Shown here piece by piece: positions 3,595 through 15,212 of a stretch of DNA of 47,069 nucleotides. The notes beneath the pieces were generated by a model. That model was not told the DNA's origin, did not search any database, and saw only the letters and a list, made by a program, of their open reading frames with translations. The translations under genes were made by a program, and so were the position numbers. This stretch comes from Prevotella sp. Its GTDB lineage: Bacteria; Bacteroidota; Bacteroidia; Bacteroidales; Bacteroidaceae. The stretch lies in NCBI GenBank assembly GCA_017410365.1, contig JAFQQY010000044.1, forward strand, positions 1 to 47,069. The letters are read 5' to 3'. Numbering within the stretch: position 1 is the stretch's first letter; each line of letters starts with the position of its first letter.

Positions 3595-5760
3595 ATGCAA
3601 AAATTACTATTAACCGCCGCTACAGCAATACTCATGCTCACTGGCTGCACTAAAACAGAAGAGACATTGAACATCGGTAAAAACAACATCAAGCTTGAAA
3701 GCGACCTGATGACGCCCGAGGCACTATGGGCCATGGGACGAATAGCATCTGCCGAGGCATCGCCTGACGGCAAGCAGATTGTATATCAGGTGGGCTACTA
3801 CAGCGTTGAAGAGAACAAAGGCCACCACGTGCTTTGCATGATAAATGCCGATGGTTCTGACAACCGCCAGCTGACCGAGAGTGCCGGCAATGAGACCGAC
3901 GCCACATGGATTGAAGATGGCAAGCGCATAGCATATATCGCCGACGGACAGATTTGGGCCATGAATGCCGATGGCACCAACAGAACAAAACTGACAGACG
4001 ATGCTACGGGTATAAATGCCTTCAAGTTCTCGCCAGACGGAAAGAAGGTGATACTGCTCAAGTCTATCCCATTCAACGAGATAATAAAGAAGAACCCTGA
4101 CGACCTGCCAAAGGCTACGGGCATCAATGCCACCGACCTCATGTTCCGCCATTGGGACCACTATGTGCAGAGCATACAGCATCCTTATGTAGCCGAGGTT
4201 ACAGAGAACGGCATCACAGAAGGCTATGACATCATGGAGGGCGAACCATACGAGTGTCCTATGGAACCGTTCGGAGGCATCGAACAACTGGCATGGAGCA
4301 CCGACTCAAAGCAGATAGCATATACCAGTCGCAAGAAAACAGGTGTAGATTATGCCATTTCTACCGATTCTGACATCTATCTCTATGACATCGACACAAA
4401 GAAGACCACAAATCTTTGCAAGCCAGCCGACTATGTGGCACCAAAGGTTGACCCGACAAAGACAATGAAGAATCAGGCTGTAAACAGCGAGGAAAACCTC
4501 AAGAACAATCCTGGTTACGACACAAACCCGCAATTCTCTGCCGACGGAAAGTACATAGCATGGCAAAGCATGGCTCGCGACGGTTATGAGGCTGACCGCA
4601 ACAGACTTTGCATCTATACCATCGAGACTGGCGAGAAGAAGTATGTGACCGAGTCGCTTGACACTAACGTGGACTCTTATTTCTGGAATGCCGACTCTGA
4701 AACTCTCACGTTCTTGGCAGTATGGCACGGTTGCGTTAACATCTACCAGACCAACCTGAACGGCGAAGTAAAGCAGTTGACTAACGAACAGGCCGACTTC
4801 GTTTCTGTGGCTCCTGCCAACGACGGAAAGAAACTTCTTGCCATGAAGCAAAGCATGGTTGCACCTACAGACATCTTCATCGTAGAACCAGACACTGCAA
4901 TCGAGAATACAAAAATCAGTCAGGTAACATTCGAGAACAAGCATATCCTCGACCAACTGTCATTAGGTAAGATTGAACAGAGATGGCTCAAGGCTTCTGA
5001 CGGCAAGGACTTACACACATGGATTGTTCTTCCGGCTAATTTCGACCCAAACAAGAAGTATCCTACCCTACTCTTCTGCGAAGGAGGTCCACAGAGTCCT
5101 GTAAGCCAGTTCTGGAGCTATCGTTGGAACTTCCAGATAATGGCTACTCATGGCTATGTAATCATCGCTCCTAACCGTAGAGGTCTGCCAGGCTTCGGCA
5201 GCAAGTGGAACGAGGACATCAGCGGCGATTGGACCGGTCAGTGCATGAACGACTATCTTTCAACTATTGACGACGCTTGCGAGAACCTGCCTTACGTAGA
5301 TAAAGACCGTCTTGGCGCTATCGGTGCCAGCTTCGGCGGCTTCAGCGTTTACTATCTTGCCGGTCATCACGAAAAGCGTTTCAAGTGCTTCATCTCTCAT
5401 TGCGGTGCATTCAATCTTGAAGCAATGTACACCGATACTGAAGAAGCATGGTTCAGCAACTGGGAGTATGATGACGCTTACTGGAATAAGGACCTGACAC
5501 CAAACGCCAAGAGAACATACGAGAACTCACCACATAGATTTGTTGACAAGTGGGACACTCCAATACTTTGCATACACGGTCAGCTTGACTACCGCATCAA
5601 CTACAATCAGGGTATGGGTGCTTTCAATGCTGCACGCATGCGTGGCATACCTGCAGAAATCCTGCTGTTCCCAGATGAGAACCACTGGGTACTGAAACCA
5701 CAGAACGGCATTCTCTGGCAACGCACATTCTTCAACTGGCTGGATAAGTGGTTGAAATAG
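3595..5760 (+). CDS. S9 family prolyl-oligopeptidase-type peptidase, lipoprotein
   Basis: 721 aa. The N-terminus is a lipoprotein signal (lipobox LTGC, Cys18), so the enzyme is probably anchored in the periplasm or on the outer membrane. Residues about 35-450 form a WD40-like beta-propeller with repeated 'SPDGKQIVYQ', 'SADGKYIAW' type motifs. The C-terminal alpha/beta-hydrolase domain carries the triad: Ser579 in GASFGG, Asp665 in GQLDYR and His697 in DENHWV. This arrangement fits the S9C branch (dipeptidyl-peptidase 5 or acylaminoacyl-peptidase type), enzymes that release dipeptides during amino-acid scavenging. Exact specificity cannot be read from the sequence. Confidence 0.92.
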   Translation: MQKLLLTAATAILMLTGCTKTEETLNIGKNNIKLESDLMTPEALWAMGRIASAEASPDGKQIVYQVGYYSVEENKGHHVLCMINADGSDNRQLTESAGNETDATWIEDGKRIAYIADGQIWAMNADGTNRTKLTDDATGINAFKFSPDGKKVILLKSIPFNEIIKKNPDDLPKATGINATDLMFRHWDHYVQSIQHPYVAEVTENGITEGYDIMEGEPYECPMEPFGGIEQLAWSTDSKQIAYTSRKKTGVDYAISTDSDIYLYDIDTKKTTNLCKPADYVAPKVDPTKTMKNQAVNSEENLKNNPGYDTNPQFSADGKYIAWQSMARDGYEADRNRLCIYTIETGEKKYVTESLDTNVDSYFWNADSETLTFLAVWHGCVNIYQTNLNGEVKQLTNEQADFVSVAPANDGKKLLAMKQSMVAPTDIFIVEPDTAIENTKISQVTFENKHILDQLSLGKIEQRWLKASDGKDLHTWIVLPANFDPNKKYPTLLFCEGGPQSPVSQFWSYRWNFQIMATHGYVIIAPNRRGLPGFGSKWNEDISGDWTGQCMNDYLSTIDDACENLPYVDKDRLGAIGASFGGFSVYYLAGHHEKRFKCFISHCGAFNLEAMYTDTEEAWFSNWEYDDAYWNKDLTPNAKRTYENSPHRFVDKWDTPILCIHGQLDYRINYNQGMGAFNAARMRGIPAEILLFPDENHWVLKPQNGILWQRTFFNWLDKWLK

Positions 5761-12230: not shown

Positions 12231-12521
12231 TTATTCAACTATCCCTGCCTTATGCCATTGGGCGAGCAGATTCTCAGCGTCATTCAAAGCTGTTGCTTCA
12301 TCTATGTTATACTCTTCTACTAATAGTTTGCAAAGACTTTCTGCTGTGAAATCATCGTCGCCAACAGAGTTCCAAAGGTAAGCAGACGATTCGTTCATAC
12401 TAATAATCTTAGAAAAATCGATGTTCTCTTTACCATCTGCAATGATTACTTGTTCACCACAAACATCTCTTAATGTAAAACCAGGTTTCTTTTTCATATC
12501 TTCCAACTTGTTAATATCCAA
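12231..12521 (-). CDS. PqqD-like peptide-recognition protein
   Basis: 96 aa. It has the small winged-helix PqqD fold: GFTLRDVCGEQVIIADGKENIDFSKIISMNESSAYLWNSV, then a helical part ending LLAQWHKAGIVE. In RiPP pathways such RRE proteins bind the leader of a precursor peptide and hand it to modifying enzymes. It is the last gene of the rpoD-led run and overlaps the peptidase gene by 11 nt, so translation is probably coupled. No precursor peptide, radical-SAM enzyme or cyclase was found beside it, so the target is unknown. Confidence 0.8.
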   Translation of the reverse strand: MDINKLEDMKKKPGFTLRDVCGEQVIIADGKENIDFSKIISMNESSAYLWNSVGDDDFTAESLCKLLVEEYNIDEATALNDAENLLAQWHKAGIVE

Positions 12522-12963
12522 TGAATTTAAATATAAACAGAAGGTATCTTCTTATAGGATATAATTTCATCCACAACGAAGAATACATTTTCCATTTCTT
12601 GCCTGTAAGGTATTCAGGCTTGTCACTACCCTTCCTAAAGAACTTCACAGTCTTTGCCTTGACATCACTCTTGCGACAATATTCATTCTTCAGATTGCCA
12701 TCGCCAAGCAATGTAATATCATCATTGTCTATGGCAATAATACGATGCAAAACGAAATAACCAGCAGTGATTTCTGCTAATACAACGTCACCCACTTCAA
12801 ACTGTCCATTGGCAAGAACCAACTCTGCTTTATCCCTACCATTTTGCAAGAAAGGACGCATGCTATTGCCCTTCAAGGGAATAGTAACGGTATGACCCTC
12901 TTCCAACATCTTTATCAAGGCTGGTATAAAGGTTGAATTAGTCAATTGTACCGTTGCACTCAT
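12511..12963 (-). CDS. S24/S26-type serine peptidase, probable Ser/His dyad
   Basis: 150 aa. The motif IPLKGNSMRPFL gives the nucleophile Ser34 (SMxP box of signal peptidases and LexA-like proteins). Where bacterial signal peptidase I has a lysine, this protein shows VLHRI with His73, followed by LLGDGN (Asp88). That fits the Ser-His (ER or SipW) branch of S26. There is no N-terminal membrane anchor; only the C-terminus (RRYLLFIFKFIGY) is hydrophobic. It overlaps the kinase gene by 4 nt and PqqD by 11 nt. In this context it is a candidate leader peptidase for a small modified peptide, which is inference. Confidence 0.78.
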   Translation of the reverse strand: MSATVQLTNSTFIPALIKMLEEGHTVTIPLKGNSMRPFLQNGRDKAELVLANGQFEVGDVVLAEITAGYFVLHRIIAIDNDDITLLGDGNLKNEYCRKSDVKAKTVKFFRKGSDKPEYLTGKKWKMYSSLWMKLYPIRRYLLFIFKFIGY

Positions 12964-13841
12964 CTTGATATTTCATTATAGCATACATGAGCAGCCTCGT
13001 CGTCTGGCAAGCAATGCATGGTGTAAACCGGAACGATTCCGATTATCTTTACTATAGTATCGCAAATGTTCTTGTAGATTGTCTTGTCCCACTTCATCGA
13101 CGAGCATGAAGGCAAGAAAGATGCAAAGGCCTGCACAGCAGCATGCTTTTCCACATAATTCCTGTCAGCCCTGCTTATTCTTGTTATGGCTCCCAACTTT
13201 GCCGACTTATTACGATAGCATGGTGTCTTGCCGCTCCATGGCGAACCAAACACATAAGGTGTGCCGTCTAGAACCCTTACCACAGGATTGTCGTCGTTAA
13301 GCAATTCCGTATCGAGAATATTCTTCAGCCATAGCGACGAATGGGTGCTCTTGCCCGTTCCACTTTGCGCGATGAAAGGATAGGCATAGCCATTGTTAAT
13401 GGGACAAGAAGCATGGATTAGCAACGTATCGTGGTAGCTGCCAGCAAAGGCATAGATGAGCATCAAGGCGTTATTTAGTCCGAAACTACGTTGAGACTTG
13501 TCGCCATATATTACACATTTGCATTTGGAGAAGTCGCTGTTGGTAATCAACAGGCAACAATCATTCTTCTTAATATCCTGGATAATGTATTGATAGCTGC
13601 CGTCATCAAACTTATATACTACTGTATATCCATTACCGGTAACACATTCACGAATAAGTTCGCCACCTGTTACTGGTTCAAGATTTGCCAAAACATCAAG
13701 TTCAAACAACAGTTCATCTGGCCTGTCGCTCAATATAAACGGCAGAAAAGAAGGTATCAAAGACAACAGTTCGTCGTCAAGACCGATGAGATTTATACAG
13801 AGGTTATGTTCTGCAACTTTAAAATAATGGCTATTCTGCAT
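12960..13841 (-). CDS. HprK-related serine kinase-like P-loop protein
   Basis: 293 aa from the start MQNSHYFKV. Starting there leaves an 11-nt overlap with the upstream gene; the longer version from 13,871 would overlap by 41 nt. The P-loop AQSGTGKST (residues about 158-166) is followed by HSSLW, then NDDNPVV and YVFGSPWSGKTPCYRN, the pattern of Bacteroidota proteins related to the C-terminal domain of HPr kinase/phosphorylase. The N-terminal 150 residues differ from true HprK, and no PTS genes are near. HprK homologues phosphorylate the C-terminus of some lasso peptides, so a tailoring role with the adjacent peptidase and PqqD protein is plausible. Confidence 0.78.
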   Translation of the reverse strand: MQNSHYFKVAEHNLCINLIGLDDELLSLIPSFLPFILSDRPDELLFELDVLANLEPVTGGELIRECVTGNGYTVVYKFDDGSYQYIIQDIKKNDCCLLITNSDFSKCKCVIYGDKSQRSFGLNNALMLIYAFAGSYHDTLLIHASCPINNGYAYPFIAQSGTGKSTHSSLWLKNILDTELLNDDNPVVRVLDGTPYVFGSPWSGKTPCYRNKSAKLGAITRISRADRNYVEKHAAVQAFASFLPSCSSMKWDKTIYKNICDTIVKIIGIVPVYTMHCLPDDEAAHVCYNEISR

Positions 13842-14280
13842 TATTATATCCCTCATCGTATGACATATCAATGTATTCGAACTTAAAGTTCTTCGGCTCT
13901 AATACACGAACATCATATTTAATGTTTTTCTTATTAGCAACATACTTGTTCATCAACTGGGTATATTTCTTCTCTATGTCCTTCTTCTTTGTTGCGAACA
14001 TCACGATGCACGTGCGATGCGGCATCTGGTATGTTTTTGAAAGGTAGTTCTTTAACTGATATGAATAATTCTCTCTGCTCATAAGGAATTTGGTCTTTGT
14101 ATCAATCCAAGCCGAATCTAATTTCTGAATTTCAGTTACAAAGACTATTGAGTCTTGAAAAGAGGCTGAGAAACCGAATATGTAGACATCCGGCACAGCC
14201 TTGCCTTTAGCAGAGATTTCATTTACGGCGAACGATGACATGAACAACATTACGCCTAAAAGTATTCTAAATATTTTCAT
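13831..14280 (-). CDS. Small secreted protein of unknown function
   Basis: 149 aa. A signal peptide covers residues about 1-24 (MKIFRILLGVMLFMSSFAVNEISAKG). The mature part looks like a small alpha/beta domain (VPDVYIFGFSASFQDSIVFVTEIQKLDSAWIDTKTKFLMSRENYSYQLKN) with a lysine-rich C-terminal half. I do not recognise a named family. It starts 18 nt after rpoD ends and overlaps the start of the HprK-like gene by 11 nt, so it is probably part of the same transcript. It might be the exported substrate of the neighbouring kinase and peptidase, but the sequence does not show this. Confidence 0.7.
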   Translation of the reverse strand: MKIFRILLGVMLFMSSFAVNEISAKGKAVPDVYIFGFSASFQDSIVFVTEIQKLDSAWIDTKTKFLMSRENYSYQLKNYLSKTYQMPHRTCIVMFATKKKDIEKKYTQLMNKYVANKKNIKYDVRVLEPKNFKFEYIDMSYDEGYNNAE

Positions 14281-14298
14281 TTATATATAAATTTCGTT

Positions 14299-15159
14299 CT
14301 ATCCCAAATATGTCTTGAGAATACGGTTATGGGTACACAATCTTAGTCGTCTGATTGCCTTTTCCTTTATCTGCCGTACCCTTTCACGTGTCAGGCCGTA
14401 TTTGATGCCTATTTCCTCTAGCGACATCTCCTTTTGATTGATTCCGTAGAATGCCTCTATCACCTGGCGTTCACGTACTGACAATGAATTTAATGCAGAC
14501 TGGATTTCTGTTCTCAACGATTCAACCACAAGTGCCCTGTCTACTATCGGCGCATCTTCGTTTACAAGCACATCAAGCAAACTGTTTTCCTCGCCTTCTG
14601 CAAAAGGAGCATCCATGGAAACGTGCTTGCCGCTCAGCTTAAGAACATCATCTATTTTATCCTCTGGCATATTTATGCAATCGGATAGTTCTTCAAGCGA
14701 AGGTCGGCGCTCATTCTCCTGCTCAAACTTGCTAAGCAGTCGATTGATTCTGTTTACAGAACCTATCTGATTCTGAGGCAGCCTTACTATCCTACTCTGT
14801 TCTGCCATAGCCTGCAATATGCTTTGCCTTATCCACCAAACTGCATAAGAAATGAACTTGAAACCTCTTGTCTCGTCGAATCTTTCTGCAGCCTTTATCA
14901 ACCCCACATTACCCTCGTTGATTAAATCTTCAAGGGTCATTCCTTGGTTCTGATATTGCTTGGCAACTGAAACAACAAATCTTAGATTTGCTTTCGTCAA
15001 CTTCTCTAAAGCTCTTTTATCACCCTTTTTTATCTGTTGGGCTAATTCCACCTCTTCGTCTACGGTCAAGAGCTCTTCTTTTCCAATCTCGGTCAAGTAC
15101 TTCTCTAAAGCAGCACTATCTCTGTTGGTAATTGATTTGTTGATTTTTAGTTGTTTCAT
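14299..15159 (-). CDS. rpoD: Housekeeping RNA polymerase sigma factor RpoD
   Basis: 286 aa from the start [18 protein letters not shown]. The in-frame start 24 nt upstream would sit at the promoter and is rejected. It has region 1.2 ([14 protein letters not shown]), region 2 ([38 protein letters not shown] and [10 protein letters not shown]), region 3, and region 4 with the helix-turn-helix ([26 protein letters not shown]). The short form without the long region 1.1 is normal for Bacteroidota, whose RpoD reads the TTTG/TAnnTTTG promoters seen throughout this window. The next gene follows at 18 nt. Confidence 0.96.
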
Positions 15160-15180
15160 TGGTATAGGTTTTATGAGTTG

Positions 15181-15212
15181 CAAAGTTAAAGTTTATTTTC
15201 AAGAAAACCAAA
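15181..15212 (-). promoter_or_regulatory. rpoD promoter
   Basis: On the minus strand TTTG at 15,212-15,209 and TAacTTTG at 15,188-15,181 with a 20-nt spacer. Transcription should start near 15,174, which places the upstream in-frame start (15,183) before the transcript and supports the ATG at 15,159. Confidence 0.75.

Follow-up and report, generated by a model that had tools for sequence, protein, structure and literature searches.

A Prevotella operon for an HprK-like kinase, an S26-type peptidase and a PqqD-type protein resembles the core of linear polyphosphorylated peptide pathways and probably acts on YxxP peptides encoded elsewhere

What does an operon encoding an HprK-like kinase, a small peptidase and a PqqD-type protein modify, and where is its substrate encoded? 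We addressed this question in a stretch of 47,069 nucleotides from Prevotella sp. (assembly GCA_017410365.1, JAFQQY010000044.1; hereafter the window), which is contig C43 of a genome (G000) of 3.28 Mb in 55 contigs. The initial annotation had described four overlapping genes behind rpoD as a possible peptide-modifying system outside any known class. The four genes do lie behind rpoD, all on the minus strand, and the features discussed here are the following.

14299..15183, minus: sigma-70 factor gene (rpoD), with Sigma70 regions 1.2 to 4; context only, outside the system
13831..14280, minus: secreted protein of 149 aa, function unassigned, linked to the trio of genes below; no convincing Pfam family among 50 members
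12960..13841, minus: HprK-like P-loop kinase of 293 aa, proposed peptide serine kinase; invariant motifs and HprK-related profiles
12511..12963, minus: S26-type Ser/His peptidase of 150 aa, proposed leader peptidase; Ser34/His73, TIGR02228 below cut-off
12231..12497, minus: PqqD-type discrete RRE, predicted leader-binding protein, 88 aa from the ATG; PF05402
12175..12201, minus: terminator-like stem-loop 3' of the PqqD gene, proposed operon end; 12 pairs, loop of 3, T run

The overlaps hold from the secreted protein through the kinase to the S26 peptidase, whose genes join end to start, but not for the PqqD gene, whose ATG (12497) lies 13 bases past the S26 stop; a TTG at 12521 is an alternative start. 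We placed the kinase start at the ATG at 13841, which has GAGGG upstream and overlaps the 3' end of the secreted-protein gene. A kinase of 303 aa starting at 13871 was rejected, as it is merely the longest mechanical ORF. The sigma-70 gene ends 18 bases upstream of the secreted-protein gene, and no site resembling a terminator turned up in this gap. The stem-loop after the PqqD gene is a consensus match only: the region has four such sites, and shuffled versions average 2.3. The genes for the secreted protein, kinase, S26 peptidase and PqqD-type protein thus read as one operon.

The folds of the three enzymatic or binding components were predicted from sequence profiles, and the earlier assignments of the kinase and of the PqqD-like protein withstood this search. 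The PqqD-type protein matches PF05402 (E=9e-15). The kinase alone gave a weak match (TIGR04352, E=0.08). At E<=1, all 27 aligned kinase homologues matched HprK-related kinase A (best 6.4e-8), 21 of them HprK-related kinase B and 12 HPr(Ser) kinase. In Pfam, 20 of the 27 matched PEPCK and nine the Hpr_kinase_C domain; HPr kinase and PEP carboxykinase have a P-loop superfamily in common. The motifs SGxGKST, NDD and GxPWSGK are invariant in the aligned homologues. For the S26 peptidase, the single-sequence scores stayed under the cut-offs of PF00717 (7.9e-4) and TIGR02228 (3.5e-5), and the nearest NCBIfam model, below its cut-off, is archaeal-type signal peptidase I. Its Ser34 and His73, 39 residues apart, are invariant in 24 aligned members. 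Searches of the PDB with the kinase and S26 profiles returned weak superfamily matches only.

To see whether these genes belong together, as the initial annotation had proposed to do, we searched for named relatives with the 27-sequence kinase alignment and kept the best 80 of at least 591 loci. In these best 80, the S26 gene is linked to the kinase in every case and the PqqD gene in 76; among the four loci lacking PqqD, L065 and L118 run into contig ends, and L060 and L096 do not obviously do so. The trio of kinase, S26 peptidase and PqqD-type protein is conserved together, and its linkage is far above chance. In the same best 80 of at least 591 loci, the secreted protein was found in 74 and rpoD in 55. 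As 19 of the 25 loci without rpoD in the examined stretch still carry the secreted protein, the latter goes with the trio rather than with rpoD. Two variations of this layout were seen. In L087 (Prevotella sp. P5-108), the sole such case among the 80 listed, about 4 kb separates the kinase gene from those for S26 and PqqD, which are encoded on the opposite strand. In L038 (8247-9518), L045, L049, L113 and L122, the secreted-protein and kinase genes are separated by a lipoprotein-like gene of the clostripain family (Peptidase_C11), of which the window genome has a homologue (G000:C24:4875-6056, L164) near a truncated NTP transferase.

Among the matches listed, the relatives are mostly Prevotella, other Prevotellaceae or Bacteroidales, and include Segatella, Hoylesella, Hallella, Palleniella, Alloprevotella, Paraprevotella and one member of the Paludibacteraceae. 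A kinase homologue is present in 164 of the 201 sampled genomes of the family. In a sample of the phylum, 29 of 395 genomes had a kinase match; five of these matches were strong (E <1e-80), and the remaining 24 reached 1e-23 at best.

The trio does correspond to a published class, contrary to what had been supposed: it is the core of the linear polyphosphorylated peptides (LPP), published in May 2026 and described, in the excerpts of PMC13381572 used here, from the lppAKBSDN genes of Paenibacillus alginolyticus. According to these excerpts, LppS is a SipW-like leader peptidase (S29, H68, D93), LppB a discrete RRE, LppK an HprK-like kinase that puts several phosphates onto Ser3 of the core, LppN an NTP transferase and LppD an MsbA-like exporter; the genes often lie in capsule loci, and the class is stated to be restricted to Bacillota. 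Both systems combine a Ser/His SipW-like peptidase, a discrete RRE and an HprK-like kinase in one cluster, and the spacing of the S26 residues Ser34 and His73 equals that of S29 and H68 in the excerpted description of LppS. All five genes, with the NTP transferase and the ABC exporter, occur together in the Bacteroidota loci L037, L047, L120, L165 and L167, where the NTP transferases match PF14907 (NTP_transf_5; 2.8e-43 to 1.8e-35) and the transporters have ABC membrane and ATPase domains. The capsule-type setting recurs as well: L037, L165 and L167 carry polysaccharide-export (PF02563) and chain-length-type (GNVR) genes nearby, and a glycosyltransferase was confirmed in L165.

The RRE offers a more specific point of comparison. 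We placed the LppB chain against the residue list in the excerpted text of PMC13381572, in which the leader Pro is clamped and the leader Tyr held by N33, I56, Y60, V67 and D70, with D70 hydrogen-bonded to the Tyr so as to fix it. An alignment of 25 PqqD sequences has seven invariant columns, and five of these fall on the pocket positions: N35, L59, Y63, A70 and D73 correspond to the five LppB residues in that order. Since the pocket residues for Tyr and Pro are conserved, a YxxP substrate is predicted. The RRE profile as a whole is nearer to the lasso RRE TfuB1 (2.5e-6) than to LppB (9x8z, 0.29), with PbaB1 (9x90) at 0.0028.

There are also differences from LPP. The published class is patchy within Bacillota, as far as the excerpts tell, whereas here the genes are found in Bacteroidota and in most sampled genomes of the family. 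Window-type operons have an additional linked secreted protein. The window cluster comprises no precursor, exporter or NTP transferase; elsewhere in the genome there is an exporter homologue, an MsbA-like ABC transporter (G000:C14:8371-10029), and the NTP transferase is truncated. The system likely works like LPP, the likeness being one of gene set and motifs; membership of the class by descent, given that the window cluster lacks these three components, is no more than possible.

Two further families share part of this gene content. In the available portion of PMC9266682, paeninodin-type and pseudomycoidin lasso peptides are phosphorylated on Ser by an HprK-like kinase, have a PqqD-type RRE and receive hexoses from an NTP transferase. 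The kinase and the RRE are common to both systems, but lasso clusters, by the same account, have a cyclase and a B2 cysteine peptidase, the place of which is taken here by S26. Neither a macrolactam cyclase nor a B2 peptidase was among the five window neighbours scanned, and 21 loci compared by clustering, in which genes were not annotated singly, showed no conserved neighbour of either kind. The other family is HPr-rel-A (TIGR04352/TIGR04353), which joins an HprK-related kinase to a PqqD-like protein. One might thus read the operon as a regulatory or polysaccharide-linked kinase system of this kind rather than as peptide maturation, given that no NCBIfam models come closer than HprK-related kinase A and the HPr-rel-A PqqD protein and that L037, L165 and L167 have polysaccharide-export neighbours. 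We consider this highly improbable, since the window proteins score far below the cut-offs (12 of 200 bits for TIGR04352, 14.7 of 35 for TIGR04353) and since an S26 peptidase and the YxxP peptides described below better suit a RiPP pathway. A peptide-modifying system of the RiPP type, as the initial annotation suggested, is very probable.

Two kinds of substrate had been put forward, the secreted protein and a peptide encoded elsewhere. The former would be phosphorylated before or during export, and it has in its favor a place in the same operon, an overlap with the kinase gene and the frequent linkage given above (74 of the best 80 of at least 591 loci). Its N terminus reads as a signal peptide, which would remove it from the reach of cytoplasmic enzymes, and both YxxP and WxxP are absent from the first 20 residues of 50 aligned relatives; the window protein has a single YQMP, at residue 84, which is not conserved. 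The secreted protein was moreover not found in the five-gene locus L120 and not seen in the five-gene loci L165 and L167. A profile search of the PDB gave one meaningless match. For lack of a YxxP leader and because of its absence from five-gene loci, we rejected it as the substrate and regard this reading as highly improbable.

The second proposal looks right. In the five-gene locus L037, the chain-length gene and a fimbrillin-like gene flank an ORF of 61 aa (MKKEYIAP...FMAAS...), which exemplifies a candidate substrate family of 40-70 aa peptides (MKKxYxxP...[L/M]x[A/G/T]S...) encoded away from the window operon. As in LPP, these have a YxxP leader and a Ser shortly after it, and no cyclase is seen beside the window operon. 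We searched DNA for the pattern ATG-K-K-x-Y-x-x-P, with the reversed pattern as control. The window genome has five matches against none for the control; four are small peptides of one type and the fifth is not. Across the 201 genomes of the family there were 680 matches against 85 reversed controls, i.e., 3.65 per kinase-positive genome (control 0.33) and 2.19 per kinase-negative genome (control 0.84). The excess in the latter lies in genera that bear the kinase (61 against 17 in 20 genomes), and the 17 kinase-negative genomes of genera g3, g4, g5, g9, g16 and g28 have 20 matches against 14.

Of 115 matched places examined, 80 of them hand-picked from the matches listed and thus not random (g3, g9 and some others were omitted), 93 were ORFs of 35-90 aa. 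Several features for which the pattern does not select are shared by these 93, nine of which were judged unrelated, kept in these statistics and dropped from the local HMM. In 78 of them a Ser falls 18 to 22 residues after the Tyr, compared with 27 for +26 to +30 and 32 for +8 to +12; a Trp lies within the last 16 residues in 73 and within residues 9-24 in five; and the part after residue 24 is acidic, with 23% D/E and 7% K/R. The distance from Tyr to Ser peaks at 19-21, against 18 in the LPP motif YxxPxVLxHQxIxFETxxS of the excerpted PMC13381572. No NCBIfam model was matched by any of five peptides tested and no Pfam model by any of four. We used profiles assembled by eye from 17 (A7) and 42 (A8) peptides. 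At E<=10 the former matches the window genome in 12 places, 11 of which score below 4e-4. We count 11 YxxP peptides in this genome, so that candidate precursors are many and scattered, unlike in LPP. In L312 (hit at ~5398-5540, plus strand, G000:C47), a peptide of 37 aa with a WCEP leader lies directly upstream of a YxxP peptide as a putative W-type sister precursor.

Peptides and kinase occur together. With the 42-peptide profile (E<=0.001), 152 of the 201 family genomes are positive: 143 of the 164 with the kinase and nine of the 37 without (Fisher p=1.1e-13, a value that shared ancestry inflates). Without the 18 genomes that supplied model peptides, the counts are 125 of 146 and nine of 37 (p=1.6e-12, inflated likewise), and among the 87 genomes at least 95% complete, a list compiled by hand from completeness values, 64 of 68 and one of 19. 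By majority rule, 20 genera have both, four the kinase only, none the peptides only and six neither. Eight of the nine kinase-negative, peptide-positive genomes are 69-94% complete and belong to genera whose other members have the kinase; the exception in quality is G112, 99% complete, with one weak match. G149 has five matches. In the phylum sample, the 17-peptide profile matches six of 395 genomes, namely all five with a strong kinase hit (G000 and G013 among them had contributed model sequences) and, of the other 390, only G422. The match in G422 was rejected as false, being the start of a 150-aa ORF that reads as an enzyme.

This co-occurrence partly reflects shared ancestry. The trio might be an LPP-like core that acts on some other peptide or protein, the YxxP peptides merely sharing its lineage; their scattering away from the window operon and the 21 of 164 kinase-positive genomes without a profile match would fit. 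These 21 genomes, together with the nine of 37 kinase-negative ones that do match, also count against our preferred reading, although one of the 21 (G008) has a YxxP peptide in its cluster (L034) that the profile missed. Four observations make such another substrate unlikely. The YxxP leader motif fits the RRE pocket, the co-occurrence reaches a second family (G202, G556), peptides lie within the cluster in L034 and L037, and in genus g3, where two of 12 genomes have the kinase, the only peptide-positive genome is one of those two.

Is the precursor then a neighbor of the trio? None was found near the window operon, and we rejected adjacency as a rule after searching 114 stretches (100 trio loci, 14 others) with a relaxed motif, which gave 11 ORFs, four of them accepted by eye (L034, L037, L050, L108). 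A profile run over 144 partly overlapping stretches (1.94 Mb) likewise found four peptides (L037, L050, L108, L123), no more than the density in the window genome predicts (12 in 3.28 Mb). Precursor-like peptides lie inside the cluster in L034 and L037 only, and there is no general enrichment near the trio.

The peptides have neighbors of another kind. In the window genome, nine of the 11 lie directly downstream, on the same strand, of a large ORF with a GLYIxNGKKxxVK-like C terminus; one of the remaining two begins 66 bases from the end of a contig, and the last lacks a neighbor of this type. The same holds for eight of 12 peptides checked in other genomes. In own-genome stretches chosen around peptides, seven of 88 complete ORFs of at least 250 aa have this tail; six stand immediately before a peptide and the seventh after one. 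These tails resemble type IX secretion sorting domains. Only one of the nine coincides with a match to TIGR04183 (18 matches in the genome), and Pfam found no tail domain in the nine proteins, one LRR region apart, which leaves this identity tentative. In G013 a peptide precedes a fimbrillin-like protein (PF13149), and in G202 and G556 lipoprotein-like ORFs that no Pfam model matches.

Taken as a whole mechanism, the operon probably encodes an LPP-like core for RiPP maturation, acting in trans on scattered YxxP precursors. Leader binding, phosphorylation, cleavage and export are modelled here on the LPP and lasso precedents. The PqqD-type RRE would grip the YxxP leader of short precursors encoded elsewhere, and the HprK-like kinase would (poly)phosphorylate the conserved Ser some 19-21 residues past the Tyr. 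With the leader presented by the RRE, the S26 peptidase would cut roughly between [L/M/F] and AxS, about two residues before the Ser. The released product would be a linear, acidic, phosphorylated peptide of ~20-40 residues, which the MsbA-like transporter may export and whose phosphate an NTP transferase would decorate in lineages that keep this gene.

A broader reading is that one operon matures many YxxP precursors across the genome, each paired with a large surface-type protein (with a T9SS-like tail or fimbrillin-like). The linear phosphopeptides would then belong to Prevotella surface assembly in general and would not be a natural product standing alone. We regard this as a tentative proposal, somewhat less likely true than false. 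The human gut, mouth and rumen all harbor abundant Prevotella and relatives. If peptide phosphorylation is indeed widespread in these bacteria, it would add a new layer to surface or signalling chemistry. The number and short length of the peptides, and their frequent pairing with surface-type proteins, make their biological role testable by deletion and mass spectrometry. The LPP class would extend beyond Bacillota, where the excerpts of PMC13381572 place it, and the LPP-like system looks like a core trait of the family, against the patchy distribution that these excerpts give for LPP.

We found no report of the trio or of YxxP peptides in Bacteroidota among the titles and abstract openings of open-licence PMC papers. 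In the available part of PMC10352776, on RiPP mining in Bacteroidales, PqqD appears once, in the reference list, and neither S26 nor YxxP appears; PMC12710340 has no mention of HprK, kinase or Bacteroid. Two other loci came to light. In a stretch around a distant HprK-like kinase in G210 (L177, 12355, minus strand), an ORF of 93 aa with a WxxP start and a body rich in Gly and Cys is perhaps another type of precursor. The window genome also has a separate RiPP-looking cluster (L330, 8244-12966, G000:C48), which holds two radical SAM-like ORFs, a Cys-rich peptide of 64 aa, a ClpP-like ORF and an ABC transporter.
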